A DNA stretch of 28,874 nucleotides from a virus. The translations under genes and the position numbers were made by a program. Where the stretch lies: IMG/VR virus record IMGVR_UViG_3300025418_000367, positions 1-28,874 of that record. One strand, 5' to 3'. A model generated the notes under the pieces. The model was not told where the DNA came from. It did not search any database and was given only the letters and a program-made list of their open reading frames with translations. Of this stretch, positions 1,801 to 24,025 are shown in pieces. Every line of letters starts with the position of its first letter. Position 1 is the stretch's first letter.

Positions 1801-2681
1801 CACATCCCGAACAAGTCTACTTAGACGCACTTAAAAACATTTTAGAAAACGGTGATGACCGTCCTGATAGAACGGGAACAGGTACACGCAGTATCTTTGG
1901 TCTTCAAATGCGTTTTGATTTGACAGAAGGATTTCCTGCTATTACTACAAAAAAACTAGCATGGAAGGCAGTAGTTAGCGAACTACTTTGGTTCTTAGAA
2001 GGCAGTGGTGACGAACTTCGTTTGAGAGAAATCTTACACGGGGAACGATATACTGAAAAGAAAACCATCTGGTCAGATAACGCTGCCGCTTCTTACTGGA
2101 CAAGTAAAAAACTCCAAAGGCACCCCGGTGACTTAGGAAGAATTTACGGAGTACAATGGCGTAAATGGCGTAAGCCATTAGTACGTATTAATAAAGTTAT
2201 ACTACAAAATCACGATCAATTAATCGAACTCATCAACGGCATTAAAGAGGATCCATATAGTCGTAGACACATTATTACAGCATGGAATCCAGGTGAGTTA
2301 GATTTAATGGCGTTACCGCCATGTCATATTCTTGCTCAGTTTTATGTTGTTAACGGTAAGTTAAGTTGCCAAATGTATCAACGTAGTGCTGATATGTTTT
2401 TAGGTGTTCCATTTAACATTGCATCATACGCATTGTTTACACACATGGTGGCGCAAGTTTGTAATTTAGAAGTTGGAGATTTGGTTATTACTTTAGGTGA
2501 TGCTCACATCTATAATAATCATTTCGATCAAGTCAAAGAACAGTTAACTCGCAAGCCGTTACCGTTACCTCAATTACAATTGAACCCCAGTGTCGATGTT
2601 ATTATGGATTTCGAAATGGACGATATCGAACTAGTGGGATATGAAAGCCACGAAGCTATTAAAGCTCCGATGGCAGTTTAA
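1797..2681 (+). CDS. thyA: Thymidylate synthase (ThyA family)
   Basis: Makes dTMP from dUMP using methylene-tetrahydrofolate, supplying thymidine for phage DNA synthesis in the cytoplasm. The 294-residue length fits the ThyA family. Diagnostic features are present: DRTGTGT with R25 near the start; the phosphate-binding SRRHII (R156, R157); the active-site PPCH with catalytic C176; QRSADMFLGVPFN (D199, N207) for dUMP recognition; and GDAHIYNNH (H237, Y239). The C-terminus APMAV matches the closing tail of ThyA enzymes. It is not the flavin-dependent ThyX more often seen in cyanophages. It starts inside the stop of the preceding gene (ATGA) and ends tail-to-tail with the fibre gene on the other strand, sharing 4 bp. 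Confidence 0.97.
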   Translation: MTHPEQVYLDALKNILENGDDRPDRTGTGTRSIFGLQMRFDLTEGFPAITTKKLAWKAVVSELLWFLEGSGDELRLREILHGERYTEKKTIWSDNAAASYWTSKKLQRHPGDLGRIYGVQWRKWRKPLVRINKVILQNHDQLIELINGIKEDPYSRRHIITAWNPGELDLMALPPCHILAQFYVVNGKLSCQMYQRSADMFLGVPFNIASYALFTHMVAQVCNLEVGDLVITLGDAHIYNNHFDQVKEQLTRKPLPLPQLQLNPSVDVIMDFEMDDIELVGYESHEAIKAPMAV

Positions 2682-5492: not shown

Positions 5493-8400
5493 TTAATTTT
5501 GAGATTTACCGTAGAAATAACTATCTGGTAAAACTGCTGGACCGTCCCTTAAGAAATTCGCAAGAACTCCTGTGCTAGATGTTAACGAAACAGTAGAAAT
5601 TTCTGGTGTAACTATATTATTCCAGACAGAATTTACTTCTTTCATAACAATCGTTAATATTGCTCCAGTAGTTAATGTTACTGTTGCAGTATTTAATGTT
5701 AACACCTGTGTGTTAGTATTAATTGAGAAATCTGCAGGATGCTGACGTAGTCCAGAATCGACAAATCCCAAAGTAGCAGTTACAACATAATTCGTAGTAG
5801 GACCGGTTGACCAGTAAATTTTATTAGTGCTGGTAACAAGATAAGTAGTGCCTGTTGAAAGTTTTGGTAATGTCGAAGCGGTTCCAGTTGATGTAGAATA
5901 ATCAATAACAACCTGAGAACGTCCTGGGGCATACACCCAAACTATGCTTGTATCGGTAGTAACATATGCCGGGCTACTTGTATATTGGAGATCTTGTTTT
6001 AAAACTGAGTAAGCATTTGTTAACGCTTCAACATTAGGATAAGAGCCACGGATTTGAGATTCTAGAATTCCATCATATGAAACGGTTGTATCTTGAGAAT
6101 ACGAAACATCCTTACGCAATGGATATCCTGCATAATATACTTGAACCTGGTCGACTGCTCGATGACTTGCAGTACTAATTGAATAAACATAAGCACCGTT
6201 AACATAAGTTCCGTTGAATGGATCGTCAGGATAATTCTGCGTCAATGATTTCCAAGGAGAACCAATTAAGGTAATACCATCGCATCTAACTGTAGATGAT
6301 GTTATCCAATTCCAGCCTTTAATCGTCGATGTACTAATCGAATAGGTATTAACCAGCGCCGCGTTTGTGTAAGTATTTTGAATCAAGAATGTTTCTTTAT
6401 AACCTATCTCAGGTCCAATCTGCAATGTTTGATAGGATCCTTGATCTATAACTAAAGTTCCTATTGCCACCGATGCGGTTGTCGATCCTGTTACACCTGT
6501 TCCACGAACACCGCGACGAATTTGACCTAACACATTATTTTCATTTGTATAGAATTCGATCAATTCACCATCAATTAAGATCGTTCCTGGAATATTTGCA
6601 GCTCTATTAGGAGGACTTAATACAGAAGAATCCTGAACATGTATCTGAGTAGATGTTGTATATAAAGGTTGAGTTAGATATGTAGAATTTGGATTAGACA
6701 ATCTTGTATAGGTTTCTTTTCCTAATATATCTTTAAAAATTCTATAACCCAATACTCCCTGAGTTGCTGACGGGCTTGCAATACTCATAATTACTACAGT
6801 ATCGTCGTCGCCAATGATGTACGCATCACTGAGTACAATAGTTCGATGGTCTGGCAATAGTTGGAAATCGATACCACCAACTAATCGTAATGTTAAGGCG
6901 CCTACTGCACTTCTATTCACAGTTACCCACACATAATTTAAATCCATTGCAGGTCTATTGAGTTTAAATGTTCTATAAGGATTTCCTCGGAACACTTGAG
7001 TCTCAATACCCATGTTGTCTTGGTCATTGTATGTAGTAATTGTATAAGTGATGTAAGTTTGGTTATAATAATTAGGCGTGAATAATATGTCTCCAGCAGA
7101 ATTTATTATGTAATCGTAGGTATACTGTTCGCTGTTATTATAAACATAATGCGATAAGAAATTGTGCGGCATCATTGCTTCAACAGCAATAGTGTCTCCA
7201 ACACCAAATGATTTGGTTATTGTTACATTATTATCATCGAATGTATAATCTTGACCCAGTTTTAGTTGAGTGCCGTTTATATAAACGTTGGCATTATCGC
7301 CGTAATTTGTATCTTTTACAAACGTTCCAGAAATATCGTTAATTTTATATGCTGTAACATTAGTAGAAGTTACTGTATAATATGTAACACTAGGAGGCAA
7401 TAAAGTTTTTGTTATTCCTGTATTGTTGTCTGTTGCTTGAACAATTGCTTGAGCACTATAAGGACCAATCTTGCCTAACGGTAAATTAGTATTGATATAT
7501 GTACCTGTGTAACTATTGTTAGGATCCAAATATGTTATATTGTAAACGTTTATAGTTTGAATATTGACTTGGTTGTACTTGTTATTAGGTGCTACATTAT
7601 CAAAGAACCATGCTTGTACTGAATTTACTACATAAGGGTTTGTATTAGACGTTGTTGTAAGATTATAAACAACAACAGAAGCACGGTTATCAGTAGCAGA
7701 TGCAGGTGTCAATGCATAATAAGGATCTGTAATCGAGGGTGTTGAGCCAAGAACTCCGCCATTCAATGTTACATAGACACTGGTTACTTCATTATAACTT
7801 CCTAAACTGACTACTTGAGTGGTTGTAGATCCATGAGAAGCACTTACCTTTTTATCGATAATGCCTACGCCATCGTTAACACCGTCGCCGACTCCAACAA
7901 TAGTATATGTTAAAATTCCATTTACAGTAAGTCTAATAATTAAATCATATCCGTTAATAGTGTAAGTACCGTAATCTGGAGAATTAGGAGTATATATCAA
8001 CTCTTCACCGTTAAATGACACAGCAATGCTTCCAGTAGTAGTTGGAAGAACTGGCAATTTAATTACAGCAGAGCTTGGATCGTTAGCGAACACGTTACTC
8101 GATCCGGTTAATACTGTAGGTGATGAATACGGATTTTTTGTATAGACATCAATACCCAACGTATCAGATACTAATCCTGGAACTACTTCTTCAGGAGCCC
8201 ATGCAGAATTAGGTGTTACAAATCCGTATTCACCGTCGATAATTAAATCAGTAGGATTGATTCCCAAAGCATTTACTAAAATTCCACTATTCCAAGACGG
8301 ATATTGTACATCCAAAACTTCCATTCCAGAATATTGATAAACAGAATCGTCTATTTGACTTGCATTAATAATTGTATCAGGAATACTTCTTCCATAAGTG

Positions 8401-11400
8401 TTTGACCAAACAGGTGCGGAACGTGCCACAATACTACCATTTACGGAGGTAGCTGTAGTTTTTATTGTTGTTGTTCCTTCGTAGTACCCGCCCATTTGAA
8501 CTCGAGGATCATCAATACCAATCATTAATTGATTAGTAGCGGTGGATATCATTTGATTTGTAGGTTGATAGAAATTTTCTATACGTTCTACCGCAGTCAT
8601 TAACGATATACTCTTCTCATAAGAGAATATAATAATTGCACCAGCAGCTGGAACTTGATCAACATTGAGGAATATTAATTTAGAATATTGTTTGTTATAT
8701 CCGTTATATTCTTGTGTATAATTTTTAACTGTATAATCTGTAGGTAATACATATTCTCCAGTTACACTCAGACTCATTTTATATCTATTAGGTTCCGCTA
8801 ACCAGCTTAATGGAAATTCAACAGTAATTCCATCACCAATAAATGTATCTGTTACAGGCAATACTCCAATTTGATTTTCAGGTGTAACCCTATCAAATAC
8901 AATTGTTTCTGTCATTTGACGTACAGGAACAGAGAATATGTCATTCTTTGTAGGAACTTCAGACACTATATATGATCCTCCGTCTATAGGAGAATAGTTT
9001 TGAGGATTATTAAACCAATCGTACGGTATTAAGCCATTGGGGTGGGGTCTGTCGTAATCTAGAACTAATGTTTTAGATACTTCTGTATTACTAAAATTAG
9101 TTGTATACTTACGAATTTTTGTTCTATATGGTTTAATTTCATTTATGAAATCTTCATAATAAGAACTATCTTGTAATTTGTATACCGGTGGCTGATTTAA
9201 TTTTTCTGCATAATTGGTTAAGTTAATGAACGAAGTTTTAAAGGCCCAGTCAATTGTGTGTTGTTCCGAGAACGCATATTTAATTGCTGTAAAGAATAAC
9301 TTATTCCAGTTTACTGACAAGTCATTAATGAAAATTTCATCTTTCAACCCTGCAAGAATAAACTCTATTTCTTTATTAGGAGTTTGGTCATACAATGTTT
9401 GATTATATGTATAATTTTCATCCCATCCGTAGCTTCGATTCCACAACGTATCTAATAATTGAATTGTTCCGTTTTGTATATATTGTATTTGATAGTTAGT
9501 ACCAAAGTTACCAACTGTACCTGTAGACAATGCTTGAACAATTATAGAATTACCATCTCCGCGGTTATTAATTTTAATATATTGTCCTGGTCTAGTATCA
9601 GCACCATAAATTTGATCAACTTCATCAAAAATCAATGCAATGTCTTGATAAGGATTGTATGTAGGCGCTACCCAATCAACAAACTTCCAATACAAAGTTG
9701 TATTATAGCTTTGTGTTTGTACTCTTGTCCACTGATTGTTTTGATAATCATAAACTGTCCATCCGCCATCGTAGGTATCATCTGCTAACACAACCGCAGT
9801 AGAAGTTGTGCCAGTGATTAGGTCTAATTCATAATTATCCACTACCACTGTATACCCTGCTGGGTATGGTTCAATTTCGTTAAAATTCAATAGAGTGTAA
9901 TTTCCTGTTATAGGAACATCAATAAGAATATCGTTTACAAAATTAACAATATTATGTAATGCTTCAAATCTATCATTGAATAGAGTTTGTTGAGGACGAA
10001 TACCAATACCAAATTTTGCTCTTGCAGATAAAGAAGGATCAGGAACCAAGGCTCCAGTTGCGGTATTACTACCGATCAAACTATCAATCATCTTACGTTC
10101 TAATAATGCAGGAGGGGCACTTGTTTCATCTCCCTCTCTCATTAAGACCCATTCTGTATGTCTTGGTATTTTACTATTAGTATTGTCAATAGCAAAATTT
10201 AAACTAATTTGATCAGATCGCAATTCATTAGAAATGTTAGATAACATTAAAGAATTACTGTCGATAATAGATGCAACTTCTAGATCTGAGGCTGTTGGAT
10301 TTGCAATATAGTTTGCAACAGAATAAGCACTAATTCTACGATTCGCTGTAGCAGGAATTACAACCTTGTTCTTGACCCAGAAGTAATACTTATTAACCAA
10401 ACTGTTTGTTGCAGTATCATATACTTGGTTAACAGACAAAGTACCGTTGTCAACAAACTTAGGTTGGCCACTGATTCCAGATGTTAGTCCAGAAGTTGTG
10501 TCTGCTTGAATAGCCCAATCGCTAGGTAGCAATGAAGATTCGACCCACTCGTAGACATCAATACTAGCTCCTGGGAATAATTTACCCCAGTTGTTACGAC
10601 GATATTCTAAATCACCTTGTTCATACCATGTGAATTTTGCAGTGCTTAGATCCCACCACAATTGTCCAACCTGCACAGACATCCATGGAGTAGACGGATT
10701 AACGTTTGTTCCTGTTCCACCGATACTATAAATTGCTGGATCGCTAGGTAATTGGTATGTTAGTTCTGCTTGAGCAATGCCAACAATTTTTCCCTTGATA
10801 GGATCAACATAGTCATAATAGTTGACAATATCATTTGCAACGGTATCAACCAAGCATATTTTTTGTACTTTGTCTACCAAAACTAAATCATCTTGAACTC
10901 GAGTTTGCTGCCAACCGACAATAGTAGGATCATTTGCAGTAAACTGATACACCGCACTTGTAGCAGAACTAATAGTAGATGTCATTCCGCCTGGAGCACC
11001 GACAATTACAATGCCTTCGTCGACAACAACAGAAGTTCCGTAATTTGTGCCTGTTGTTATTTCTTCTTGTGAATTAATCAATTCTTCACTATAAACAAAT
11101 CTAGTATCTCTACGTGAATACATATAAACAGAACCAGACATACTTTCTGTCTCTGTAAATCGTGTAGTATTCAAGTCAAATGTAGTCGAGTGTCCGTCGA
11201 AATAAGTTATTACATTTGAATTAGTACCTAATGCAGAAACAACCAAGATATTAGTTTCTGTATTAAAATCCATCGCAACACCAAATTTCATTTGAGAACC
11301 TGCTACTGGATTTGTGATAATAAAATCAGATATAGGAACGTATTCGCTACCGTTATTTTGATATATTGCAACTGCACCTAAACTACCATCAGCATTTAAC

Positions 11401-14400
11401 ACATTAGGAGCACCTACCGCAAGATAACTTCCATCCTGACTCAGTGCCACTGATTGTCCAAAGTTAGTTGTGGTATTGGTGAACGGAGATAGAATATTAT
11501 AATGTGAAACAAAAGTAGGATTATTAGAAGGACTTGTTGTTAGATATATGTAAACTGTGCCAGAAGAATTATACCCCGGAGCACCAATCGCCACGGTTTT
11601 TCCAATTTTATCTGTAGCGACAGATGTACCAAATCTAGAACCAGCTGTGGTTCCGTCTACAGATCCACTATATGTCGAACTAACTGAATTTGTGCCTGTT
11701 GTAATTAAGTATGTATAAACTGTACCAGTGCCTGTGGGGGCGCCGACAAACAATACACTCTTATTGTAGTTAATAGGAACTATGTTTACACTCGAACCAA
11801 AACCCCAACCATATGTTGAAGTAGTGATTGTTAAATCTATAGCAGCCTTACCATATTGATCAATGCTGGTAACTATCACTTCACCGCTGTTATGATTAGC
11901 ACCAGGAGCGCCGCCAAATATCAATCCGTAACCGGCAGATCCGTATGGATTTGGATTATATGCAACAGAATATCCGTATAGATTTCCGTTGCCCGGAGTG
12001 TCGGCTAATTGATAATAAGAAAGTGGAGATATACTTCCGTTTTCTAATTGGTACAATCCCACGTTACCCGATACATAAACTCCATTATTGTCTATGTTAG
12101 AAAAATAAGGAGATCCTATTGCAAGTACATTACTTCCTTTAGGTTTAGAAATACTATATCCGAAACCCACATTATCAACATTTAAGTAACTAAATGTAGC
12201 GGTATTAGAATAATTTACTATCTTTTTGTATACAGCCCATCCGTTGTTGTCAGTTCCATTTCCGCTGTCAACCCAGATATTTGTTCCAAGGTCATAGCGA
12301 TATAATATTTGATCAGTAGGCATGTCATCATATGTAGCAACACGAATTGAATCAAATGTAAACAATAAACCTGGACTTATTGGATCTGGAAAATCTATAG
12401 AACCCAAAGTACTAGCAACTGTAAATTCAGTTTTACTTGGCACTGCCTGAATAGTGTAGATGCCATCAACTGTGACATCAACGTCAACAACAGAAACTAG
12501 TTGTCCTACGGATAAATTATGAGTGCCGCTAGTTATGAATGTTATCTGACTGTAAGGTTGCGATGCGACAACACTAACAATGTCAGCTGATTGGAAGGTG
12601 TATCGCAGAACATCCCAATTGCCGTCTGGTGTAAATCCTAACCAAATAGTTGTACCATCTTCGATGATATCGTTGTTAGCGATGTCTAGTAAACTATCTC
12701 GGTTATATGCAGTCGAATCGACATCATCGAATCTTACGTATCCACTATGCGGTAGTTCAAATACATCTGTAGATGTTGTGGTTGCTACCTTAGGCAAAGT
12801 ACCGGTACCAATAGTTAATTCATTAGGAGTAATGTAAGAAATCAAAGAATTGTTTTCAGGTACAGTATCAACAAAACTAACAATTTGTGGATTTTCTACA
12901 AACGTTCCTTCCTGTAACGGAACTTCAAATTCATTATACGTTGTAAATGATCCATATTGTCCAACTCTAAAAGCCCACTCTTCTGTAAACTCAATTTGAC
13001 TATTCAAGTTTTCTAAAGAAGCAGAAGCTAATTTAAGAATAGGGTTTGCTGTTCCTTTTTCTTTAATAAATCCTTCGTAAAACTTATATTGACTAACTGG
13101 GTTACTAAAGATATTATTCAAATATGGACGTGGTGTGTAGCCTGTTAAGTTTTGTGCAGCCTGTTGTATACTTGCATCGAAGTTATCAATATCTAAACTA
13201 TAATAATCATTAAATTGATTAATTTGGAAATCAAAGTTAGGAAACAGCCCGGCAGTCGGAGCGGATTTTAATACATTCCATTGATCAAATACAAAGCTCT
13301 GTGCTCCTTGAATGTTAGATTTTGCACTATAATATTGTCCATTGAACAATACTACATCACTGGCAAGATAATTTTTATAAGGAGTCCAGTTGACTACTTT
13401 AGCTTCATCGTATAAGAAACCTGGGGCAAAGAAATCTCCGTTCCAGTTGGAAGTTCTAAAACCAACTAGCTTCACACGTTCTTGACGTTCACCTGTTTCA
13501 ATATCATAAATGACATCACCAAAAATATCAGTGTTGTCAAACACCATACCGTGTTCTTTTTGTATGCAAAGTAGTCTTGCAAAATATATTCCATCAGGAT
13601 TATTAATAACGTTAATCTTAAATTGGCCGTTTTGGCGTGTTATGAATAAGTTACTTTGAGGGAAAGGAGTACCATCTGCTCTTGCAATATTGTAGTCGTA
13701 GAACTTATCAAATACATTATTAACTACAGAATTATTAGATTGGTATGTTAATTGATCGGCAAATGGACTCAATGTAATAACACTATTAGATGTCCAGTTT
13801 TGAGTACTCCAGAACAGGAATTCTCGTCCGCTTAGATACCAATCAACATTAGTTCCTAATTCTTTATTAAAATTGTCAAATACAAACCCTTGGTCGGTTA
13901 ACCAAGCGCCGTAACCAACAATTAAATCGTAAAGATCTTGTATGTTGTTAAATGTTGTTCCATAAGGAACTTGCACGGCGTTTTTATTAAACGACGATGC
14001 TGTTTGAACAGTGGCACCCCCGACTGTAGGCAATGCCGATAAAATTTGATATAAAGAAGAATCAAATACAGCTTCAGCGGCATGACTAACAAGTACTCTG
14101 TAGAAGTTATTACCGTATTGAACAATTTGTCCGGCTTGATAGAAAATATTAGCCGAAGCTGCTCGTGCTGTAGTTGTATCTAAGGAAGTTAAATTTGTGG
14201 CGCCAATAGAACTTGCAGATGTCCATACAACATAATTAGCACTAACACCGCCAATTGTTATTGTAGGTGTTGTTGAATTTCTAACAGAAGGATAATATGT
14301 AAAGTAAGGATTTTGTTGATCATATCCTCTAATTACATAATTTCCATTCAGGCGTTGTATAATAATTCCAGAAATTCCTATACTCTTTATTGGATTACTA

Positions 14401-17400
14401 GTGTTAAGAATTAATGTATAATTTTCATTTGGAAGTACTGCACCTGGTAAGTTTGTAGTTGGTTCATAAGCATCGATAATCACTTGTAAAGTTGATTTAC
14501 TTACGAAACCGCCTACCTTATGGAACAGGTTAAAACTAGCATATTCAAGATCTTGACGTAATTCTTTAATATAATTTTGTGTTCTTTGTTGACCAATTTC
14601 ACTAACAAATACGCTATATCCGCTTGTAGCAACACCATTCTCGCCGTGGATAGGCATATTTTCTAATTGTAAGAATGTATAATTAGATCCATATGTCCAC
14701 TGTCCTGCAACATTAACATTCATGTTATAAGGGTCATACATTAATGAACAATACGATGCGGGTTGAGTCAATGCTAGTAAGCGTTGAAGTGCAAAAGGCC
14801 AGTAGCTACTACGGCGCCATGCTGTTTCAGCAGGTCCTTGATCACCAAATACCCAATTATCTTGTATAGAAGCAGTGTCTGGTTTATTAGATATTAATCC
14901 AATTTGACCAGGAGTAAGAAGATTTCCGTAGTTATCTACAGGCAATATTTTTGATAAACCTGTACGAGCATACAAAGGATATCGACCTACTCTTGTACCT
15001 TGAGCAATAATACCTTGTTCAATATCACTCCACATATTACCATTACCTGAAGTATATGGAGCGGGACCGTATTCACTTTCCCACCAGGAAGGCTTGCTTG
15101 TAAATCCTAACATTTCCCAAGGATTAGTGTGCGGTCGATCTGTATCGTAGAAATATTTAAAGATAGCTCTCCACGACCCACTAACTGTTATTCCTGTGCT
15201 GGTAGATGCACCTGGATAACGCAAACCAAGATAAACAGAATTTTTATAATTCCAGGTTAATTCGTTTTGCAGGTCTACTGTGCTATTAGTGGTGTAATTA
15301 ATACCATAAGTTCCAGACCATTTGATAAAATCTTGTTGTAGTATGTCATTAATTTCTGTAAGACTATATGTGCTTGTTCCTACAGAATCTCTAAATGCGC
15401 CAGGGTTAGAAGAATTTACATCAAATAAATTTTGCTTATATGCTATTTTAAGATTATTATAAACACGACGTTCGTATTCTAAAATAATTGCATCTCGATA
15501 ATCTCCAAATGCAACAGTTAAACTTCCGTCGTGGCCCTGAATAACATTTACGGGACCATTGGCGTATGTATTATCTGAAATTATTTGAGGCACGAAAGAA
15601 GGATACAATCCTAATTTAGTAGGCGTTGGAGGAATAAAATTGCCGTGTGTGTTGCCGTAATCTCTAATTGTAATAACATCGCCAACAGTTAACGGCGTAA
15701 CAATAGATATACCGGCATCATACTGATCAAATATATAATCTCGATAAACGGCTAGTTGTTCGTTATTCAAATATACTAGAACACTTCTATTTGAAACTAC
15801 GTTTAAATTAAATTCTGAAGATGTTGGATAAGATACTGTGCTGGTGTTGGTTACTGTATAAACTAAAGTAGTTTTATCAATGCCGTATGCCAGCATATCT
15901 GACAAATAATAAGGACTTGTAGATGTTCGGCTTAGATTAAAATTAGTAATAATTGTATCAAGAGCAACTGCAGGATCAGATACATCACTTATTGCAGATG
16001 CTTGAGCTATTAATGCTATTTTAAATCTGTTATATGCATCTGCAGATTTATCAATAGCGTCAATTACACTATTGGTTTTCTTACCAATAAACATCATAGG
16101 GAACGACATTGGATTATTGCCGTTAGCAATCAATCGAGTATTCGTTGCTGCCTGTTCATCTAAATCAGATAAAGTAAAATTAGTTAGGTTGCTGTTTAAT
16201 GGATTATTAGCAAGACTTAATGGAATATCATAATAGCCCGAACTATTAACTCTAATAGACGGAGATACTAATTTACTCCACACATTTAAATATTGATTTC
16301 CAAGTTTAAAGTAAGTGTTACTGGTAGGAACATTAGTAGTTTGATTTGAAGATTCTGATATTACAATTTTACCTGAACCAAAATAATTTGTAAACAAATA
16401 ACTTCCAATAGAAGAAATATTACGATAATCAACAGTTAATCCCAAGACAGGATCAACAGGATTACTTTCGTTAATACTGTATCCAAATATTTCGTTACCA
16501 GAAAAATTACTTAGATAATAATTTCTGTTAGAATAACTTATACCAGCTTCATCAAATAAATCAAATAAAGGTGCTTGATTTGTATTTGTTTTTTGTTGTG
16601 CTTTCACCCACAACGAGCCATTATACCAAACTGTAGTACCACCAAATTTTTCGCCTCGCAGTACTAAAATAGATTCATTCAGAGCAGGCAAAGTATCTGT
16701 AGTTGGTGCTAATGTAACTGTATAGGTTCCGTTGATATTAACAAATTGAACTTCGTATATATTATTTTGTACCGTTGGATCAGCATCTTTAGTAAAAATA
16801 ATACGTTGACCGTGTTCAAGATAAATGCCATCTACCACATAACTGCTGGTGTTTGATAACCCTACGACAGGAGTTCCTGATATTTTTAAAAATGCATTTG
16901 TAGTAACATTGTCAATTAGATCAACTGCTTGTCCGGCAGTCGACCCGTGATTGAACAATTGTAGATTAGCATTGAATTCTATAATAGGTCTTTCAGCACG
17001 TTGAAGAGAAGGTAACTTAATATCTTCTTTATTAATTTCGCAACTTGCAATAATTACATCTTCACTAACCCAACGATTTGCTCTAGACCAAGCGTTTCTA
17101 TCTTGACTAGCTCTATTGATGGTAATGTATTGCGGATCGATAGGCATGTTCCTATCGTTATCATAACCAAATGTATCAAAATTATCAGTATCAAAAAACT
17201 CCGGTGAGTATTGAGCCGAACTTTCAGGAGTAGTTAATTCATTGAATGGAATAAGAACAACACTGGTGCCAGTTCCTTCTACAAAGTATTCTTTATATTT
17301 GTATTCTTCAGAAACCCCGTCACCGCTAAACGAAATCAACATACCGTTTAATAAAGTAATGTTAGTTCCGCTAACCGAGACTACGGGAGTAGGTACTCCG

Positions 17401-17873
17401 ATAACACGATTTAATACATCTAAGTTAGGTTGATCAATATCGATTAAAACCGGACCTTCTGGTAACCAGTAGTACTTTTGATAATTTGTAAGTTTGTTCC
17501 AATCAATTTGAGGATAGTATGGATATACCTGACTTCTAAACAATCTATCAAAGTTATCTATTATGCCGCCTTCGACTAGAATCTCGTTGGCTAAATCATC
17601 GATAGCAACTACATCTTGAACAACTCCGTTAATGTCTTTAGTAATTAAAGCAGGTTCTAATTGATATGCCTGACGTAACGGACTGGATTCTTGAATGTAA
17701 ATATCACCTGACTGATATGTAGGTGTAGATGTAGACCCAATATATGCATTCAACCGTTCTAACTGTGCTGGTTGTATTAATTGATCGATAGTGCTCGATA
17801 AGAATTTACTGTTCTTATTAGTTTGTAAATATGTGGGTAATAAATTAACTGACTGTACTGTTGATGTTGACAT
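5493..17873 (-). CDS. Giant baseplate/wedge-type structural protein (4126 aa) with an internal FG-GAP beta-propeller
   Basis: Directly follows the gp6-like gene (2-nt gap; GGAA before the ATG), the position gp7 holds in T4, but four times longer than T4 gp7. The N-terminus (NLLPTYLQTNKNSKFLSST, LERLNAYIG, residues 11-46; WNKLTNYQKYYWLPEGP, residues 125-141) and a core around 2855-2925 (NWNKLFFTAIKYAFSEQ, IDWAFKTSF, EDFINEIKPYRTKIRKY) resemble very large structural proteins of marine T4-like phages. Short modules near residues 1240-1263 and 1495-1530 have a Y..G/D.V...YY pattern like carbohydrate-binding modules. Residues about 1895-2315 contain seven FG-GAP-like repeats, starting at F1904, Y1966, F2025, F2081, F2138, F2197 and Y2278, each ending in a V.VGAP-type strand. 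Near 3745-3800 is an IPGTILIDGELIEFY unit. The C-terminus is LRDGPAVLPDSYFYG. No signal peptide or catalytic motif was seen. Likely a baseplate-wedge scaffold that also displays host-surface-binding domains; the binding role is inference. Confidence 0.88.
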   Translation of the reverse strand: MSTSTVQSVNLLPTYLQTNKNSKFLSSTIDQLIQPAQLERLNAYIGSTSTPTYQSGDIYIQESSPLRQAYQLEPALITKDINGVVQDVVAIDDLANEILVEGGIIDNFDRLFRSQVYPYYPQIDWNKLTNYQKYYWLPEGPVLIDIDQPNLDVLNRVIGVPTPVVSVSGTNITLLNGMLISFSGDGVSEEYKYKEYFVEGTGTSVVLIPFNELTTPESSAQYSPEFFDTDNFDTFGYDNDRNMPIDPQYITINRASQDRNAWSRANRWVSEDVIIASCEINKEDIKLPSLQRAERPIIEFNANLQLFNHGSTAGQAVDLIDNVTTNAFLKISGTPVVGLSNTSSYVVDGIYLEHGQRIIFTKDADPTVQNNIYEVQFVNINGTYTVTLAPTTDTLPALNESILVLRGEKFGGTTVWYNGSLWVKAQQKTNTNQAPLFDLFDEAGISYSNRNYYLSNFSGNEIFGYSINESNPVDPVLGLTVDYRNISSIGSYLFTNYFGSGKIVISESSNQTTNVPTSNTYFKLGNQYLNVWSKLVSPSIRVNSSGYYDIPLSLANNPLNSNLTNFTLSDLDEQAATNTRLIANGNNPMSFPMMFIGKKTNSVIDAIDKSADAYNRFKIALIAQASAISDVSDPAVALDTIITNFNLSRTSTSPYYLSDMLAYGIDKTTLVYTVTNTSTVSYPTSSEFNLNVVSNRSVLVYLNNEQLAVYRDYIFDQYDAGISIVTPLTVGDVITIRDYGNTHGNFIPPTPTKLGLYPSFVPQIISDNTYANGPVNVIQGHDGSLTVAFGDYRDAIILEYERRVYNNLKIAYKQNLFDVNSSNPGAFRDSVGTSTYSLTEINDILQQDFIKWSGTYGINYTTNSTVDLQNELTWNYKNSVYLGLRYPGASTSTGITVSGSWRAIFKYFYDTDRPHTNPWEMLGFTSKPSWWESEYGPAPYTSGNGNMWSDIEQGIIAQGTRVGRYPLYARTGLSKILPVDNYGNLLTPGQIGLISNKPDTASIQDNWVFGDQGPAETAWRRSSYWPFALQRLLALTQPASYCSLMYDPYNMNVNVAGQWTYGSNYTFLQLENMPIHGENGVATSGYSVFVSEIGQQRTQNYIKELRQDLEYASFNLFHKVGGFVSKSTLQVIIDAYEPTTNLPGAVLPNENYTLILNTSNPIKSIGISGIIIQRLNGNYVIRGYDQQNPYFTYYPSVRNSTTPTITIGGVSANYVVWTSASSIGATNLTSLDTTTARAASANIFYQAGQIVQYGNNFYRVLVSHAAEAVFDSSLYQILSALPTVGGATVQTASSFNKNAVQVPYGTTFNNIQDLYDLIVGYGAWLTDQGFVFDNFNKELGTNVDWYLSGREFLFWSTQNWTSNSVITLSPFADQLTYQSNNSVVNNVFDKFYDYNIARADGTPFPQSNLFITRQNGQFKINVINNPDGIYFARLLCIQKEHGMVFDNTDIFGDVIYDIETGERQERVKLVGFRTSNWNGDFFAPGFLYDEAKVVNWTPYKNYLASDVVLFNGQYYSAKSNIQGAQSFVFDQWNVLKSAPTAGLFPNFDFQINQFNDYYSLDIDNFDASIQQAAQNLTGYTPRPYLNNIFSNPVSQYKFYEGFIKEKGTANPILKLASASLENLNSQIEFTEEWAFRVGQYGSFTTYNEFEVPLQEGTFVENPQIVSFVDTVPENNSLISYITPNELTIGTGTLPKVATTTSTDVFELPHSGYVRFDDVDSTAYNRDSLLDIANNDIIEDGTTIWLGFTPDGNWDVLRYTFQSADIVSVVASQPYSQITFITSGTHNLSVGQLVSVVDVDVTVDGIYTIQAVPSKTEFTVASTLGSIDFPDPISPGLLFTFDSIRVATYDDMPTDQILYRYDLGTNIWVDSGNGTDNNGWAVYKKIVNYSNTATFSYLNVDNVGFGYSISKPKGSNVLAIGSPYFSNIDNNGVYVSGNVGLYQLENGSISPLSYYQLADTPGNGNLYGYSVAYNPNPYGSAGYGLIFGGAPGANHNSGEVIVTSIDQYGKAAIDLTITTSTYGWGFGSSVNIVPINYNKSVLFVGAPTGTGTVYTYLITTGTNSVSSTYSGSVDGTTAGSRFGTSVATDKIGKTVAIGAPGYNSSGTVYIYLTTSPSNNPTFVSHYNILSPFTNTTTNFGQSVALSQDGSYLAVGAPNVLNADGSLGAVAIYQNNGSEYVPISDFIITNPVAGSQMKFGVAMDFNTETNILVVSALGTNSNVITYFDGHSTTFDLNTTRFTETESMSGSVYMYSRRDTRFVYSEELINSQEEITTGTNYGTSVVVDEGIVIVGAPGGMTSTISSATSAVYQFTANDPTIVGWQQTRVQDDLVLVDKVQKICLVDTVANDIVNYYDYVDPIKGKIVGIAQAELTYQLPSDPAIYSIGGTGTNVNPSTPWMSVQVGQLWWDLSTAKFTWYEQGDLEYRRNNWGKLFPGASIDVYEWVESSLLPSDWAIQADTTSGLTSGISGQPKFVDNGTLSVNQVYDTATNSLVNKYYFWVKNKVVIPATANRRISAYSVANYIANPTASDLEVASIIDSNSLMLSNISNELRSDQISLNFAIDNTNSKIPRHTEWVLMREGDETSAPPALLERKMIDSLIGSNTATGALVPDPSLSARAKFGIGIRPQQTLFNDRFEALHNIVNFVNDILIDVPITGNYTLLNFNEIEPYPAGYTVVVDNYELDLITGTTSTAVVLADDTYDGGWTVYDYQNNQWTRVQTQSYNTTLYWKFVDWVAPTYNPYQDIALIFDEVDQIYGADTRPGQYIKINNRGDGNSIIVQALSTGTVGNFGTNYQIQYIQNGTIQLLDTLWNRSYGWDENYTYNQTLYDQTPNKEIEFILAGLKDEIFINDLSVNWNKLFFTAIKYAFSEQHTIDWAFKTSFINLTNYAEKLNQPPVYKLQDSSYYEDFINEIKPYRTKIRKYTTNFSNTEVSKTLVLDYDRPHPNGLIPYDWFNNPQNYSPIDGGSYIVSEVPTKNDIFSVPVRQMTETIVFDRVTPENQIGVLPVTDTFIGDGITVEFPLSWLAEPNRYKMSLSVTGEYVLPTDYTVKNYTQEYNGYNKQYSKLIFLNVDQVPAAGAIIIFSYEKSISLMTAVERIENFYQPTNQMISTATNQLMIGIDDPRVQMGGYYEGTTTIKTTATSVNGSIVARSAPVWSNTYGRSIPDTIINASQIDDSVYQYSGMEVLDVQYPSWNSGILVNALGINPTDLIIDGEYGFVTPNSAWAPEEVVPGLVSDTLGIDVYTKNPYSSPTVLTGSSNVFANDPSSAVIKLPVLPTTTGSIAVSFNGEELIYTPNSPDYGTYTINGYDLIIRLTVNGILTYTIVGVGDGVNDGVGIIDKKVSASHGSTTTQVVSLGSYNEVTSVYVTLNGGVLGSTPSITDPYYALTPASATDNRASVVVYNLTTTSNTNPYVVNSVQAWFFDNVAPNNKYNQVNIQTINVYNITYLDPNNSYTGTYINTNLPLGKIGPYSAQAIVQATDNNTGITKTLLPPSVTYYTVTSTNVTAYKINDISGTFVKDTNYGDNANVYINGTQLKLGQDYTFDDNNVTITKSFGVGDTIAVEAMMPHNFLSHYVYNNSEQYTYDYIINSAGDILFTPNYYNQTYITYTITTYNDQDNMGIETQVFRGNPYRTFKLNRPAMDLNYVWVTVNRSAVGALTLRLVGGIDFQLLPDHRTIVLSDAYIIGDDDTVVIMSIASPSATQGVLGYRIFKDILGKETYTRLSNPNSTYLTQPLYTTSTQIHVQDSSVLSPPNRAANIPGTILIDGELIEFYTNENNVLGQIRRGVRGTGVTGSTTASVAIGTLVIDQGSYQTLQIGPEIGYKETFLIQNTYTNAALVNTYSISTSTIKGWNWITSSTVRCDGITLIGSPWKSLTQNYPDDPFNGTYVNGAYVYSISTASHRAVDQVQVYYAGYPLRKDVSYSQDTTVSYDGILESQIRGSYPNVEALTNAYSVLKQDLQYTSSPAYVTTDTSIVWVYAPGRSQVVIDYSTSTGTASTLPKLSTGTTYLVTSTNKIYWSTGPTTNYVVTATLGFVDSGLRQHPADFSINTNTQVLTLNTATVTLTTGAILTIVMKEVNSVWNNIVTPEISTVSLTSSTGVLANFLRDGPAVLPDSYFYGKSQN

Positions 17874-17875
17874 TA

Positions 17876-20800
17876 TTAATTTCCGCTAATATTTAATTGT
17901 GCCGGTGTGGCTGCGGAAATAACTTGTATATTTGCCGCGGTTGCTCCGCTAATAAAAATCTCATTGCTTTGACATGCAACTTCGTATAAATTTCCAAATC
18001 CGCTAGATACAGGAACAAGCAAGAAGTTAGTAATGTCAGGTGTTAAAATATTCATAATATAAGTTGATAGTTCGCTAAAGTAAAAACTTTGTCCAAAGTC
18101 CCAATTTTCTAAAGCAAAGAAAGCATTGATAGCGTTCAATACTTGGCTTCTAATAGCGTTGGCACTTAATACACTTGTAGGGCTTTGTACTACTTTAAAA
18201 GTTGCCTGTAAATTTGTATCGGCTGCATTACCGAATAATATTTTATAAGATGCAGGTTGATATACTATTTGATCGCTAATTGTTTTAATAGGCTCTAGCA
18301 CTGACGAATAGTTATTTGCTAAATCGCTAGTTGTAGGCGGAGTAGGTTTAGTGCCGCCAGAACTCAACCAATTTCTAAATGCCGCATCGTAGTCTGCTGT
18401 TAACATATAAACATCAATGATATTGCTTTTTGCAGGATCAACTCGAACATCATTACTTGGATTGTGTTGGTATTGGAATTTCAAATTAGCACGACCTGGA
18501 AGAACCGTAGGAGTTCCGTTAAGCATAATTGTGGCGGTACTTGTTCCGACAATATTATTAAATGCATCAGGATTTACTATTTGACTGAACTGTTGACTAT
18601 TTTGATTTTGATAATTACTGATTAAAATAGTCGAAGGATCGATATATCCATCGGGCTCTACAATTGTTCCATCTATTTGCCAAACATAGTCCGCAGGTAA
18701 AGGGAACCCTTTAGCTATACCGTTAGTATTTGTATTAGAAGCATTTACAGATAGAATGGTAATTTTATCTTTAACAACCGTGTTGTTTGTATAATCAAAG
18801 TTGATCGAAGAAGTGTCTACATAAAAACCTGTTTGTTCAGCACTTTGAAAAATAAACTGTTCTTGTTTAGATACAATACGATATTTGTTGTTGCCAACAT
18901 TTATGAACATTATTAACCAACTTGCATCTAAATTAGTATTACTTGTATCACTGGCATAGTTAAACATTGTCGAAGGGTCTACAAAATTTTGATTCAAATC
19001 TGACCCTGGGATAATTGTCCAATTTCTTGTATTAGGATTAATTGTTAATCCAAATGTTAAATTAGAAGATACTAAATTAATAAGATTTGTTTCAAACGTA
19101 TAACCTAAATTGTTGATATATGCTGGAATTATTTCTACTGGCAACGCACCATTAGGAATTACATTTGTAAAGATAACAGGACCAGTACCGTCGCTTAAAT
19201 TACCAAGACCGTTGTTAGATCCTGTACCAATAACTTGTTGAACAGTGGTCCACAAATATAAAGAAACTGTAGGATCTTCTGTAGGAGTAACTACAGTAAA
19301 ATTACCATTGGCATCAAAATATTGTTGGCGATCGTATATATCTTTTGGTGCTTGGAATTTAATCATGGCACCAGGAGTAATATAATACAAGATATATGGC
19401 AATGATGAGTAAGATGGTCCAACTGCCGCAGGCGAGGTCAATCCGTTACTAGAATTTACAATAGTAAAATATCCTCGGCTTTGTCCAGCAACTACTTGAG
19501 ATTGAACCCATGCATAATCTAAAAGATTTGAAGAAATTACAGGTTTGTAAGATCTATAGGCATCTAGGTAAAAAGAATATAATTCTGAACTTGCCACAAT
19601 GGGGTTTAGTTCATTTTTAAATGTGGCCCATATGTCATTTTGTGTGTTGAAAGAAAATTCTGTTGTTGAAGTAGTTAATTTCTTAGTTAAGATTCCATCA
19701 TTACAAAAAATATTTGTTTGACTATATTTTCCGCTAACGTCACTAAGTTCAAAGTATTTGCTAATACCACTGCTGATGCGATTAACACTATGCACCTTAA
19801 GAACGTTAGTTGTATAAGTCAACGGAGCAATATTATAGTCCTCTGCGGTGACCATACGATTTTGTGTATAATATTGCTGAGGTGCATTTTTTTGAATGGA
19901 AATATTTGATTCAGTCGCTGAACTATTGCTTACTGTATATTCAAGATTCAAAATTAGACTCAAAGTTTGATTGATTCCAGATTTATCAATATACGGAATA
20001 TCAACTGTAACGCCTGTCAATTGTTCAGGTTTGATAGTATAGGTAGATCCGTTACTTTGACGATAGAAAATTTGAAATTGCCCTGTAGGAAGATTTCCAA
20101 AATTGCCATCAGAAAAGTTTAAATCAATTTGATCTTGATCTCGTGTTGTAATACTGTATAAGTTTCTATTTTTTAAATTTAAACTATTATAGATAACATT
20201 GTTTCCGCTGATTCCTGGAACCCGTGTCCACAATGTAGAATAATTTCCGGCAGGATCTAACTGCCATAACCACACATCTGTGTTATTAATATTACTAACA
20301 TTAATGCCTACAATCTCATTAGGAACTGGATTTGCTATGGTAAAATTACTAGCTGCCGTTGACCCTTGTTTAAACATGGCAAAGAAACCAGATGAAGGAC
20401 TGCCTGGACCCTGATTGTCATTTTGATATATAAGGTTAAAAACATTTCCTGGCAATGGAGTATCTTCGTAGACAAAATCTTTACCAGAGAATGTAGACGA
20501 TACAACTTCAAAATTCATGCTTGAACCATTAATGTTTTGACTGAATTGAAAAATTGGAACGTCTGTGTTAGAACTATTGATAGTGTATTGTTGAGTTAAA
20601 ATTCCACCAATTGTTCCGCTATCGTTGGGAGTGCCAAATGCCATTAACCCTGGCATTGCTGTATTAAGAATTGTTATAAATTGTTGGTACCAGTTAGCAT
20701 TAGTTGGATCATTCCAGATAACCGGGGTGTTTGCTAAATTATTACCAGTTGCATCAAATACATTTCCAGTAGTTGTTACGGCAGAAATCTTTAACATACC

Positions 20801-21145
20801 GCTAGCTGGTACATTACGTTTAGGAACATAACTCACTAATTGTGCTAATCGCAGTATACTGTCACGACGTTGTGCTGTTTCTAAGAAGTTTTCACGGGCA
20901 TTTAAATCAACACGGAAACTTAAATTTTGACCAAGGTAAGCAATTAATTCAACAAGTGCAATATATTCACTACTTTCAATAAAATCATTAAAATCTTCAG
21001 GATAGTTTTCTTGAAGGTAACTGATTAAAATACGACGGAGAGTGTCAAAATCGTAACTTTGAAATTCTGCGTTGGGCAAAGACTGAAATATTTTTGTCCA
21101 ATCTTGATTAAGTAATAGTTGTGAATTTGTTGCTGGAATGGTCAT
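17876..21145 (-). CDS. Baseplate wedge protein, gp6-like (1089 aa)
   Basis: Residues 30-120 carry the characteristic gp6 N-terminal helices (DFDTLRRILISYLQENYPED, DFIESSEYIALVELIAYLG, RVDLNARENFLETAQRRDSI, AQLVSYVPKRNVPA). The long middle is beta-rich. Residues about 980-1050 (SANAIRSQVLNAINAFFALE, DFGQSFYFSELSTYIMN) match the gp6/gpJ-type C-terminal domain that closes the inner ring around the hub. In T4, gp6 dimers join neighbouring wedges and connect them to gp25 and gp53. The protein is much longer than T4 gp6 (660 aa), as is common in aquatic relatives. A late-promoter box lies 19 nt upstream; only a weak GAG site precedes the ATG. Confidence 0.9.
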   Translation of the reverse strand: MTIPATNSQLLLNQDWTKIFQSLPNAEFQSYDFDTLRRILISYLQENYPEDFNDFIESSEYIALVELIAYLGQNLSFRVDLNARENFLETAQRRDSILRLAQLVSYVPKRNVPASGMLKISAVTTTGNVFDATGNNLANTPVIWNDPTNANWYQQFITILNTAMPGLMAFGTPNDSGTIGGILTQQYTINSSNTDVPIFQFSQNINGSSMNFEVVSSTFSGKDFVYEDTPLPGNVFNLIYQNDNQGPGSPSSGFFAMFKQGSTAASNFTIANPVPNEIVGINVSNINNTDVWLWQLDPAGNYSTLWTRVPGISGNNVIYNSLNLKNRNLYSITTRDQDQIDLNFSDGNFGNLPTGQFQIFYRQSNGSTYTIKPEQLTGVTVDIPYIDKSGINQTLSLILNLEYTVSNSSATESNISIQKNAPQQYYTQNRMVTAEDYNIAPLTYTTNVLKVHSVNRISSGISKYFELSDVSGKYSQTNIFCNDGILTKKLTTSTTEFSFNTQNDIWATFKNELNPIVASSELYSFYLDAYRSYKPVISSNLLDYAWVQSQVVAGQSRGYFTIVNSSNGLTSPAAVGPSYSSLPYILYYITPGAMIKFQAPKDIYDRQQYFDANGNFTVVTPTEDPTVSLYLWTTVQQVIGTGSNNGLGNLSDGTGPVIFTNVIPNGALPVEIIPAYINNLGYTFETNLINLVSSNLTFGLTINPNTRNWTIIPGSDLNQNFVDPSTMFNYASDTSNTNLDASWLIMFINVGNNKYRIVSKQEQFIFQSAEQTGFYVDTSSINFDYTNNTVVKDKITILSVNASNTNTNGIAKGFPLPADYVWQIDGTIVEPDGYIDPSTILISNYQNQNSQQFSQIVNPDAFNNIVGTSTATIMLNGTPTVLPGRANLKFQYQHNPSNDVRVDPAKSNIIDVYMLTADYDAAFRNWLSSGGTKPTPPTTSDLANNYSSVLEPIKTISDQIVYQPASYKILFGNAADTNLQATFKVVQSPTSVLSANAIRSQVLNAINAFFALENWDFGQSFYFSELSTYIMNILTPDITNFLLVPVSSGFGNLYEVACQSNEIFISGATAANIQVISAATPAQLNISGN

Positions 21146-21192: not shown

Positions 21193-21630
21193 TTATTGTA
21201 ATGTCAAACCAGTTTCGTGATTAAAATCTAATTTCATTGATGCGGACTGATCTGTTCCGACCAATTGTAATGTTATTTCAATAAGATATCCACCTGGTTT
21301 TTCATTCACATTCATTAACGTAGGAGTAACTCTAGGATCACTGGTGCAAATAGTTTGTATATCATTGCTTAATAAATCAAAGATTTCATCTGTCATTGGT
21401 TCCATAATGACGTCCCATATTATTGAACCAAACGTAGGTAGCATAACACGCTCGCCTTTACGAGTGTTAAATTGATTGATAATATCTTGTTGTATTAATG
21501 CAAAATCGTATAATTTAGAGTTAGTATTAGATATATCAACACTGCTAAACCCAACATAAAATTGACTAGTTTTAGGAGGTTGTTGATAAACCGCTGATGC
21601 ATTAGAAACTGTAACTGATTTGTATGGCAT
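21193..21630 (-). CDS. Baseplate wedge protein, gp25-like (145 aa)
   Basis: Member of the gp25 / lysozyme-like-fold (non-enzymatic) wedge family found in all contractile tails, which binds gp6 and helps start sheath assembly. Visible family features: the helix AIQQDI-type segment FALIQQDIINQFNTRKGERV followed by MLPTFGSIIWDVIMEPM (residues 43-79), then DEIFDLLSNDIQTI and a C-terminal beta hairpin (GGYLIEITLQL). Length matches the family (about 130-145 aa). Its ATG is the only ATG before residue 63, yet it has no Shine-Dalgarno sequence. A GATAAATA box ends only 7 nt upstream. Confidence 0.93.
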   Translation of the reverse strand: MPYKSVTVSNASAVYQQPPKTSQFYVGFSSVDISNTNSKLYDFALIQQDIINQFNTRKGERVMLPTFGSIIWDVIMEPMTDEIFDLLSNDIQTICTSDPRVTPTLMNVNEKPGGYLIEITLQLVGTDQSASMKLDFNHETGLTLQ

Positions 21631-21637
21631 GATATAC

Positions 21638-21645
21638 TATTTATC
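21638..21645 (-). promoter_or_regulatory. Possible late promoter box immediately before the gp25-like gene
   Basis: GATAAATA (7 of 8 to TATAAATA) overlapping the stop codon of the gp5-like gene. The distance to the ATG is 7 nt, so transcription from it would give an almost leaderless mRNA. The other boxes in the window sit 19-21 nt from their start codons, so this one may be chance. Confidence 0.3.
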
Positions 21646-24025
21646 GTCCAGTAATACTGGTAGATAACGGGGCTGTGGTTATTGGATTCCCTGAACTATC
21701 AGTAACAATTGTGCCATCGCTAGATCTTAAAGGTGTTCCAGCGTTAGGTGTCGTTGAAGAAGGAACTATAAAGTAATTAGGTTCTCCTTTAACTATACCA
21801 ACTCCTGCTGCCTTTAAGACATTCACTACAGAAATTCTGCGTAACGACGCTGTGTACGCAACACTACTTGGAGTAATCGATCCTGAACCAGTTTGATCAA
21901 GACTCTTGTTTTGAATATAAATTTTATAATTAGGATCCGATGGATTATTTGTAGCAATAACATCGTTAGGTCCTTTGAATCTAAATGCAGGATAAAAAAT
22001 AGTTACATAGACATTGGCAATAGTTGGTTTAGGAACTTGGGCACTTGGCCAGCCAAATTGTTGGAAGAATTTCTTAACATATTGCATCTGTTCAGGTCTG
22101 GTCATTTGCGCCAACGCCGCGGTAGTCGTACCTAATCCCTTAGCTGTAGATTCCAAGAACTGAATCAATCCTGTTGCAGATCCTAGTGGGTTTTTAATTG
22201 CAGGATCGTACGTTCCGCCTGTTTCATTCCACATAGCACCTAACAAGTCTAATGGGTCAAAATTAAATCCTTCAGAAACAGTTTTAACCGCTGTTAAGAA
22301 TGGTTGATCTGTGCTCCATGGGAATCGTTGACCCCGGACAGTTCCTTTATCAACACCTGGGCCTGATTGGGCAGGATATGGAGTGTTTGTAGTATTTGTA
22401 GCACCTGGAGTAACATTACCATTACTGGTTCTAACACTAGGTTCTGCGGTTGCATCTGTGTTTGTTATTGTAAATTGCGACGGATTTATATTTTCATGCT
22501 GATCCCACGGTTCATGCATTGGAACACGTTGCATAATACTTAATAACTTACCACTGCTATTATAGAATTGACTATTTGACCAGCCTGTACTTGTAGTTTT
22601 TACATCAATCGCAAACTGCCCTAACCCTCGTGCCTTTGTTACTGTAGGTGCCTGGGCTGGAGTAGCAATGGTTGGAGATGCAGAATTCATGTTTATCAAC
22701 GTAGAACCATTTCCAATAGTCACTGACTTGTTGGCTGTTAATGATAAATTTGTACCTCCTGTAATTGCTACAGGGCTTTGAGAACCAGAAGATATATTAA
22801 ATTGACCGCCTGCACTTAAAGAACTTACTCCAGTAGCAAGAATATTAGAATTGCCTCCAGCGGCTAATCCAAAGTTACTCACTACATCTACATTAAGGTT
22901 ATTGCCGGTGTATAAATTAAAGTCGCCAACTGCTGTGTTGTAAATGTTAGTACCAATTTGATTAATATTACCCGACGAGTTTATATTAATATTTCCAGCC
23001 ACTGAAGCACCGTCACCTACGTTGGTTGCAATATTAAAATTACGACCCGCTTCTAAGTTAAAATCTCGTTCTGCACGTAGGTTAAAATCGCCACCGGTGT
23101 GTATTGACACAGAATCCTGAGCATAGACATCAATCTTGCCCTGACTTGTTAGTTCTATCCAAGCAGATCCGGCAGCATTACCTATGTAAATTAAATCAGC
23201 AGTATTATGTAATAATATCTGATGACCAGTTCTTGTTCTAATTCTAACTAATTCGTTTGACAGATTTCCATTAGCATCAGTGTATCCGTCATCCATGACA
23301 AACGTAGTTCCACCTAATCTGCTTACTGGTGCAACTGCATTTTTATTAGGACCGATTTGTTTCTTAGGAGCTGATGCGCTATTATCCAGTGGGCCAGGTG
23401 TACTAATACCATAAACTTGACTAGGAGTTTCTCTACGTGCGCTACTAGATGTTACGCCGCGAATAGTATCCATTAGTAGACCTTGTCGTAACAAAGCATC
23501 TGCAAAAGGATGAACTGGTTTAGGTTTTTGATCTATTCTAGGATCTTTTAACAGTTCTGTCTTTTTGTTATATTCAGCAACAGGTACGTTGGAGGTTCCG
23601 TATTTCTTTTGTTGTGCCGCTGTCATATTCGAATTTTGCGAAGACGCAATACCAGGTATCATGTAATTCTGATATGTATCTTGAACACTACCCATCCAAT
23701 AACATTGATTAGGATCTTCTTGGGCAAAGATTACCATGACCCTACTACCTATGTCAGGAGGGATCATCCAAAAACCATAACTCTTTTGAACATCGTTGAA
23801 GTTTTTAGCATCGCTGCCTTCATATTCAACAGATGTCGCACCACTGAATGGGCTTAGATATTTTGCAATATAAGTCTCGCCTGATATACTTGGATCGTTT
23901 TGTAAACCCTGAATCAAGGAAACTTCTAATCGTCCCATCTTAAGTGGGTCATTGTGATTAACAATTACCGCAATAAAAGGCCCGGAGTTTCTTGGCGGGA
24001 TTCTTGCTCTTTCATCAAATGACAT
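21641..24025 (-). CDS. Baseplate hub/needle protein, gp5-like, with C-terminal lytic-transglycosylase-like domain (794 aa)
   Basis: Residues 12-125 form an OB-fold like the N-terminus of T4 gp5 and VgrG (FIAVIVNHNDPLKMGRLEV, then YGFWMIPPDIGSRVMVIF, then CYWMGSVQD). Residues about 235-445 include a VgrG/gp5-type repetitive beta-helix with short strands (VYAQDSVSIHTGGDFNLRAE, FNLEAGRNFNI, NININSSGNINQIG), the trimeric needle. Residues about 570-700 look like a lysozyme/transglycosylase-type muramidase: MWNETGG with E601 as the likely catalytic acid, then SATGLIQFLEST and the trailing MTRPEQMQYVKKFF helix. It should open peptidoglycan during tube penetration. In T4 gp5 the lysozyme lies between OB-fold and helix; here it comes after the helix. 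Ribosome-binding site TAAGGT overlaps the upstream gene's stop. Confidence 0.9.
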   Translation of the reverse strand: MSFDERARIPPRNSGPFIAVIVNHNDPLKMGRLEVSLIQGLQNDPSISGETYIAKYLSPFSGATSVEYEGSDAKNFNDVQKSYGFWMIPPDIGSRVMVIFAQEDPNQCYWMGSVQDTYQNYMIPGIASSQNSNMTAAQQKKYGTSNVPVAEYNKKTELLKDPRIDQKPKPVHPFADALLRQGLLMDTIRGVTSSSARRETPSQVYGISTPGPLDNSASAPKKQIGPNKNAVAPVSRLGGTTFVMDDGYTDANGNLSNELVRIRTRTGHQILLHNTADLIYIGNAAGSAWIELTSQGKIDVYAQDSVSIHTGGDFNLRAERDFNLEAGRNFNIATNVGDGASVAGNININSSGNINQIGTNIYNTAVGDFNLYTGNNLNVDVVSNFGLAAGGNSNILATGVSSLSAGGQFNISSGSQSPVAITGGTNLSLTANKSVTIGNGSTLINMNSASPTIATPAQAPTVTKARGLGQFAIDVKTTSTGWSNSQFYNSSGKLLSIMQRVPMHEPWDQHENINPSQFTITNTDATAEPSVRTSNGNVTPGATNTTNTPYPAQSGPGVDKGTVRGQRFPWSTDQPFLTAVKTVSEGFNFDPLDLLGAMWNETGGTYDPAIKNPLGSATGLIQFLESTAKGLGTTTAALAQMTRPEQMQYVKKFFQQFGWPSAQVPKPTIANVYVTIFYPAFRFKGPNDVIATNNPSDPNYKIYIQNKSLDQTGSGSITPSSVAYTASLRRISVVNVLKAAGVGIVKGEPNYFIVPSSTTPNAGTPLRSSDGTIVTDSSGNPITTAPLSTSITGR

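Follow-up and report, generated by a model that had tools for sequence, protein, structure and literature searches.

A predicted seven-bladed FG-GAP beta-propeller inserted into a giant baseplate-region protein of uncultured jumbo phages

Beta-propellers of the integrin type are known in animals and bacteria, and other types of propellers occur in a few phage tails. The propeller of integrin alpha subunits (human alpha-4 and alpha-M; PDB 3v4p and 9t3y) is a closed ring of seven FG-GAP blades in which an N-terminal strand is placed to close blade 7, and an I domain is grafted in one of the loops. Integrins have calcium loops in blades 4/5 to 7, and bacterial examples of FG-GAP propellers have calcium motifs in all seven blades (PMC3192720). 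Among phages, the C-terminal part of phiKZ gp131 is a seven-bladed propeller (PDB 4GBF) that was suggested, without proof, to be receptor binding or enzymatic, and the propeller in the baseplate receptor-binding protein Gp45 of Staphylococcus phage phi11 has a proposed sugar pocket (PMC4901313). A literature search, in which subscription papers were mostly not covered, yielded no paper joining FG-GAP with a phage baseplate or tail fiber.

The window analyzed here is a 28,874-base record of an uncultured virus, in which the tail genes listed in Table 1 are read from the minus strand. The propeller predicted in its giant 4126-aa protein likewise consists of seven FG-GAP blades in a closed ring, and related phages graft domains in its loops as integrins do with the I domain. 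Unlike integrin alpha, however, it is part of a phage virion protein and has no DxDxDG calcium loops, no integrin leg, and no beta subunit. It shares the Pfam family of the bacterial FG-GAP/FG-GAP_2 proteins (PF14312), whose cut-off is exceeded by the isolated phage domain, but differs from the bacterial examples in being inserted in a baseplate-region protein and in having no calcium motifs. Similarly to the propeller of this window, that of phiKZ gp131 is seven-bladed and located at a jumbo-phage baseplate; however, the only Pfam match of gp131 is RCC1-like (weak), and it shows neither FG-GAP blades nor profile similarity to the window propeller. Gp45 of phi11 differs in having five blades, in being a separate trimeric receptor-binding protein, and in its Gram-positive host. 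FG-GAP blades are also found in the same broad phage group, but in separate genes: in a 393-aa "hemagglutinin" of Agrobacterium phage Atu_ph07 (NC_042013, 243018-244199), which has seven blades and adjoins the tail sheath genes, and in two adjacent giant hypothetical proteins of Sinorhizobium phage Phosso (PV764938; 3182-aa frame at 48338-57826 and 3702-aa frame at 57900-68978), which together contain ~35 FG-GAP_2 repeats. The giant proteins at the gp7 position of these two phages have no propeller. Phosso also has FG-GAP repeats in two smaller proteins, encoded at 92-94 kb.

The gene order in the window is gp5-gp25-gp6-giant, with the giant gene directly downstream of the gp25 and gp6 genes, and the order of the last two matches the 6-7 order of T4. 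In PA5oct, two wedge genes are likewise followed by the giant gene, and the homologue encoded there, gp355, is marked ESI-MS/MS in its database record. From the gene order we infer that the giant protein takes the place of gp7 in the baseplate wedge. No sequence similarity to T4 gp7 was found: seven segments of the protein compared by hhalign with a six-member gp7 alignment all gave probabilities of <1%, and no part was similar; a profile search of the PDB with the N-terminal 500 residues gave no match. The initial annotation had called the protein a baseplate protein, which agrees with its position after gp25 and gp6 and with the mass spectrometry mark on the PA5oct homologue and finds no counterpart in similarity to gp7. 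Two genes lie on the strand opposite to the tail genes, those for a thymidylate synthase (1797-2681, plus strand), with 357 bits in Pfam, and for a VWA-like DUF2201 protein (54-584, plus strand).

Table 1. Positions of the tail genes, the propeller, its blades, and the flanking hairpin strands in the window
Feature	Position	Strand	Basis
Giant virion protein, 4126 aa, T4 gp7 gene position	5493..17873	-	ORF; PHROG 10938 virion structural protein, 1067 bits
gp6-like baseplate wedge protein	17876..21145	-	PHROG 10646 and 219 baseplate wedge
gp25-like baseplate wedge protein	21193..21630	-	PHROG 43 baseplate wedge
gp5-like baseplate hub/lysozyme protein	21641..24025	-	PHROG 13211
Inserted seven-bladed FG-GAP propeller (predicted), residues 1885-2319	10917..12221	-	FG-GAP_2, model, fold matches, empty sites
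Host hairpin strand 1, residues 1879-1884 (WAVYKK)	12222..12239	-	Model strand 41-44; conserved and continuous with strand 2 in propeller-less relatives
Host hairpin strand 2, residues 2320-2328 (GWQQTRVQD)	10890..10916	-	Model strand 483-487; propeller-less relatives
N-terminal strand, residues 1888-1894	12192..12212	-	Model strand 49-55; alignment with integrin residue 1 begins at model residue 47
Blade 1, residues 1902-1962	11988..12170	-	Blade HMM 19.0 bits
Blade 2, residues 1963-2021	11811..11987	-	Blade HMM 11.8 bits
Blade 3, residues 2022-2077	11643..11810	-	Blade HMM 10.9 bits
Blade 4, residues 2078-2134	11472..11642	-	Blade HMM 28.3 bits
Blade 5, residues 2135-2193	11295..11471	-	Blade HMM 30.8 bits; best FG-GAP_2 stretch
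Blade 6, residues 2194-2273	11055..11294	-	Blade HMM 31.8 bits
Blade 7, residues 2274-2316	10926..11054	-	Blade HMM 32.3 bits

Seven FG-GAP motifs had been noted in the giant protein at residues 1904, 1966, 2025, 2081, 2138, 2197, and 2278, and all were found there; the domain limits determined here are slightly wider than those first given (10930-12190). When residues 1880 to 2330 were searched alone, FG-GAP_2 matched three stretches (32.6 bits; E value, 9.5e-8; cut-off, 23), whereas the score on the whole 4126-aa protein was 22.3 bits. All six aligned members (6/6) were also matched, the best with an E value of 8e-28. The window sequence was excluded from a blade HMM, which was derived from 11 relatives and identified seven blades, no more and no fewer, within residues 1886 to 2332. 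Since their scores (10.9 to 32.3 bits) all exceed that of the highest match outside this region of the protein (6.6 bits) and that of the top match to the reversed protein or any of 200 shuffles (8.2 bits), chance repeats were rejected for all seven blades, i.e., for more than five. HMM support was obtained with FG-GAP_2 on the isolated domain and with the seven blades, but not with the older FG-GAP model PF01839, which remained below its cut-off. A relaxed pattern of the cage motif (FG ... P ... G) matched blades 1 to 5; blade 6 has no proline, and blade 7 has no last glycine. Matches to DxDxDG-type calcium loops, which are absent from the window propeller, were seen anywhere in the slot (the region corresponding to the propeller) in 10 of 108 relatives, and because of this absence we file the domain under FG-GAP_2 and call it "integrin-like" rather than an integrin domain proper. 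The propeller alone, searched against phage records, gave no match.

A profile of 12 sequences with a similar-sized propeller, in which the relatives share 26 to 63% identity with the window across this segment, placed human integrin alpha-4 first in the PDB (6.4e-13), and the twelve best matches were all integrin alphas. AlphaFold2 applied to the 12-sequence alignment gave one model with a mean pLDDT of 76.6 and a pTM of 0.80. Foldseek searches with this model also returned integrin alphas first (E value, 1.5e-12), and the best 50 matches were all integrins. In VIA-align, the model was superimposed on integrin alpha-M with a Z score of 33.4 (3.0 A, 353 residues). The WD40 propellers of G-beta reached a Z score of 32.4, nearly equal to that of integrin, and VIA-align alone does not separate the two; therefore, the seven-bladed fold is secure, whereas the integrin kinship comes mainly from sequence. 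Sequence and predicted fold agree that residues 1885 to 2319 are a closed seven-bladed FG-GAP beta-propeller, as the initial annotation had anticipated, and the modeled ring is closed rather than open. The N-terminal strand at residues 1888 to 1894 probably supplies the fourth strand to blade 7 and would thereby close the propeller.

The propeller fills the turn between the WAVYKK and GWQQTRVQD strands, i.e., it is located at the tip of a hairpin, and both strands are also present in the model. Isolates with a giant protein of the same family lack the segment: in 121Q, only 35 residues separate the counterparts of window-protein residues 1850 and 2352, RaK2 has 139 residues against 596 in the window, and PA5oct has 260 against 586. 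The slot is only 26 to 32 residues long in five uncultured relatives (L133, L140, L157, L196, and L200), three of which (L140, L133, and L196) keep an unbroken hairpin (W-x-V-Y, turn, W...R...VD) at the propeller site, exemplified by PWKVYQ-KYG-VWFEYR...VD in L140. The alignment with these empty-slot homologues thus bears out the suggestion that the propeller is an insertion flanked by a conserved stretch on either side and is carried by a subset of the phages. By eye, the slot of SCTP-2 contains a lectin/LamG-like stretch instead of the propeller (no Pfam match), and that of Atu_ph07 contains long PG.GY..P repeats.

A tree based on the conserved parts outside the slot was constructed for 131 relatives among the matches listed. 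It indicated a single change of state, with 108 rows with blades and 23 without (a ratio that is not a prevalence) split by a branch with a support of 100, and an IQ-TREE analysis of 60 rows gave the same single change. The 23 propeller-less rows include all seven named phage records compared, among them PA5oct, RaK2, 121Q, and Atu_ph07; a degenerate propeller could escape detection in the 13 of these rows in which other material is present, whereas in the ten with a slot of <130 residues it could not. The propeller was therefore acquired once, by the ancestor of a large branch of uncultured jumbo myoviruses, or lost once in the sister branch. None of the sequenced isolates compared has the propeller, and among the matches the propeller branch contains no sequenced isolate. 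Among the members sampled, the integrin-type propeller thus has a single origin and is fixed throughout a large branch of jumbo phages, and it can be used as a marker for this branch, which lacks a sequenced isolate among the records compared. A search of genome contigs yielded two distant loci only and revealed no host of the propeller branch. Two giant-protein relatives (L204 and L205) come from contigs that had been assigned to an Endomicrobia MAG and a Gammaproteobacteria MAG; this binning may be wrong and is not taken to indicate a host.

In many marine-type relatives (a label read from sample numbers), the slot comprises 565 to 1500 residues. CBM_5_12 was matched in the slot with 28.9 bits in L021 and with lower scores in L012, L017, and L029. 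Insert sites were taken only from relatives with one or two inserts, as automatic mapping is unreliable in the longest relatives; in these clean cases, the extra part is located in blade 2 (B-C loop, the commonest site) or, in a different clade, in blade 5 (between strands C and D). Each of the 19 pairs compared showed lower identity in the slot than in the downstream flank, and in three pairs with comparable dS (L011/L024, L013/L016, and L106/L112), the dN of the slot was ~1.5 to 3 times that of this flank. Over eight pairs, the dN/dS of the slot was 0.06 to 0.16, giving no sign of positive selection over the domain. The slot is thus under purifying selection yet evolves more freely than its surroundings. 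Loop conservation was 0.32 on the top face versus 0.20 to 0.26 on the bottom face, and the top-face loops vary most in length. As these loops are not less conserved than the others and dN/dS is low, diversifying selection on the top face was rejected.

The reading that we prefer, to which we assign a probability of about 0.55, is that the propeller would serve as a host-contact platform on the baseplate wedge, gained once (or lost once in the sister branch). The presence of the propeller in the whole jumbo branch and its absence from the isolates compared suggest that it is probably a host-cell contact module acquired once, and contact with the host is further suggested by the grafted sugar-binding-like domains, the faster evolution, the baseplate position, and the precedents of propellers at phage baseplates (phi11 Gp45 and phiKZ gp131). 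Because both chain ends enter from the hairpin, the ligand-binding-type face would be on the opposite side, pointing away from the wedge. The fibres could first bring the baseplate near the cell, after which the propeller loops would touch surface sugars or proteins, and the domains grafted in the loops of relatives (CBM5/12-like and others) may share this contact. Against the host-contact reading stand the low dN/dS, the top-face loops that are not less conserved than the bottom-face ones, and the extra domain of some clades in the C-D loop of blade 5, i.e., on the other face, as well as the lack of sequence similarity to T4 gp7. Moreover, sister phages such as RaK2, in which the slot is empty, infect their hosts via other receptor-binding proteins (PMC10253068). 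We suggest more tentatively that an integrin-like head in the baseplate wedge of the entire uncultured jumbo branch, acquired once, might combine close-range host recognition with a role as a chassis for exchanging carbohydrate-binding and other loop domains.

Propellers often act as protein-protein platforms, and the domain could instead be a structural or docking module that braces adjacent wedges or holds a fibre or another baseplate protein without touching the host. Purifying selection and the presence of the propeller in all branch members sampled are consistent with such a role, and the somewhat higher conservation of the top-face loops would fit a fixed partner within the virion. However, a buried brace could hardly tolerate variable loop lengths and grafts of up to hundreds of residues, some of them CBM5/12-like, and in every pair compared the slot has diverged more rapidly than the flanking domain downstream, so that we consider this role, the main rival, less likely than host contact. 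Ig-like and lectin-like decorations occur on other phage proteins, and the propeller might similarly be a decoration in a permissive hairpin slot that provides weak, nonspecific adhesion (e.g., to mucus or particles) and hardly affects infection. The slot of sister phages does hold different material, comprising tens of residues (RaK2 and 121Q), other sequence (PA5oct and SCTP-2), or long repeats (Atu_ph07), but the occurrence of the propeller in 108 of 108 sampled branch members is unlike that of a dispensable decoration, which makes this the least probable of the explanations. If the host-contact reading holds, the exact insertion point and the natural empty sites offer a testable case of a baseplate gaining a recognition domain without a new fibre.

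Blade 6 has a 20-residue loop, FDGHSTTFDLNTTRFTETE, and the model pLDDT is <50 at model residues 382 to 397. A blade 6 loop of low model confidence, FDGHSTTFDLNTTRFTET (residues 2222-2239; window positions 11157-11210), showed a conservation of 0.51 compared with 0.36 for the rest of the propeller, and FD..TT.F motifs resembling it were seen in aligned relatives. In addition, the record of one relative (L062) contains, besides the propeller in the giant protein, seven strong FG-GAP_2 repeats in a 2111-aa frame (58437-59579).
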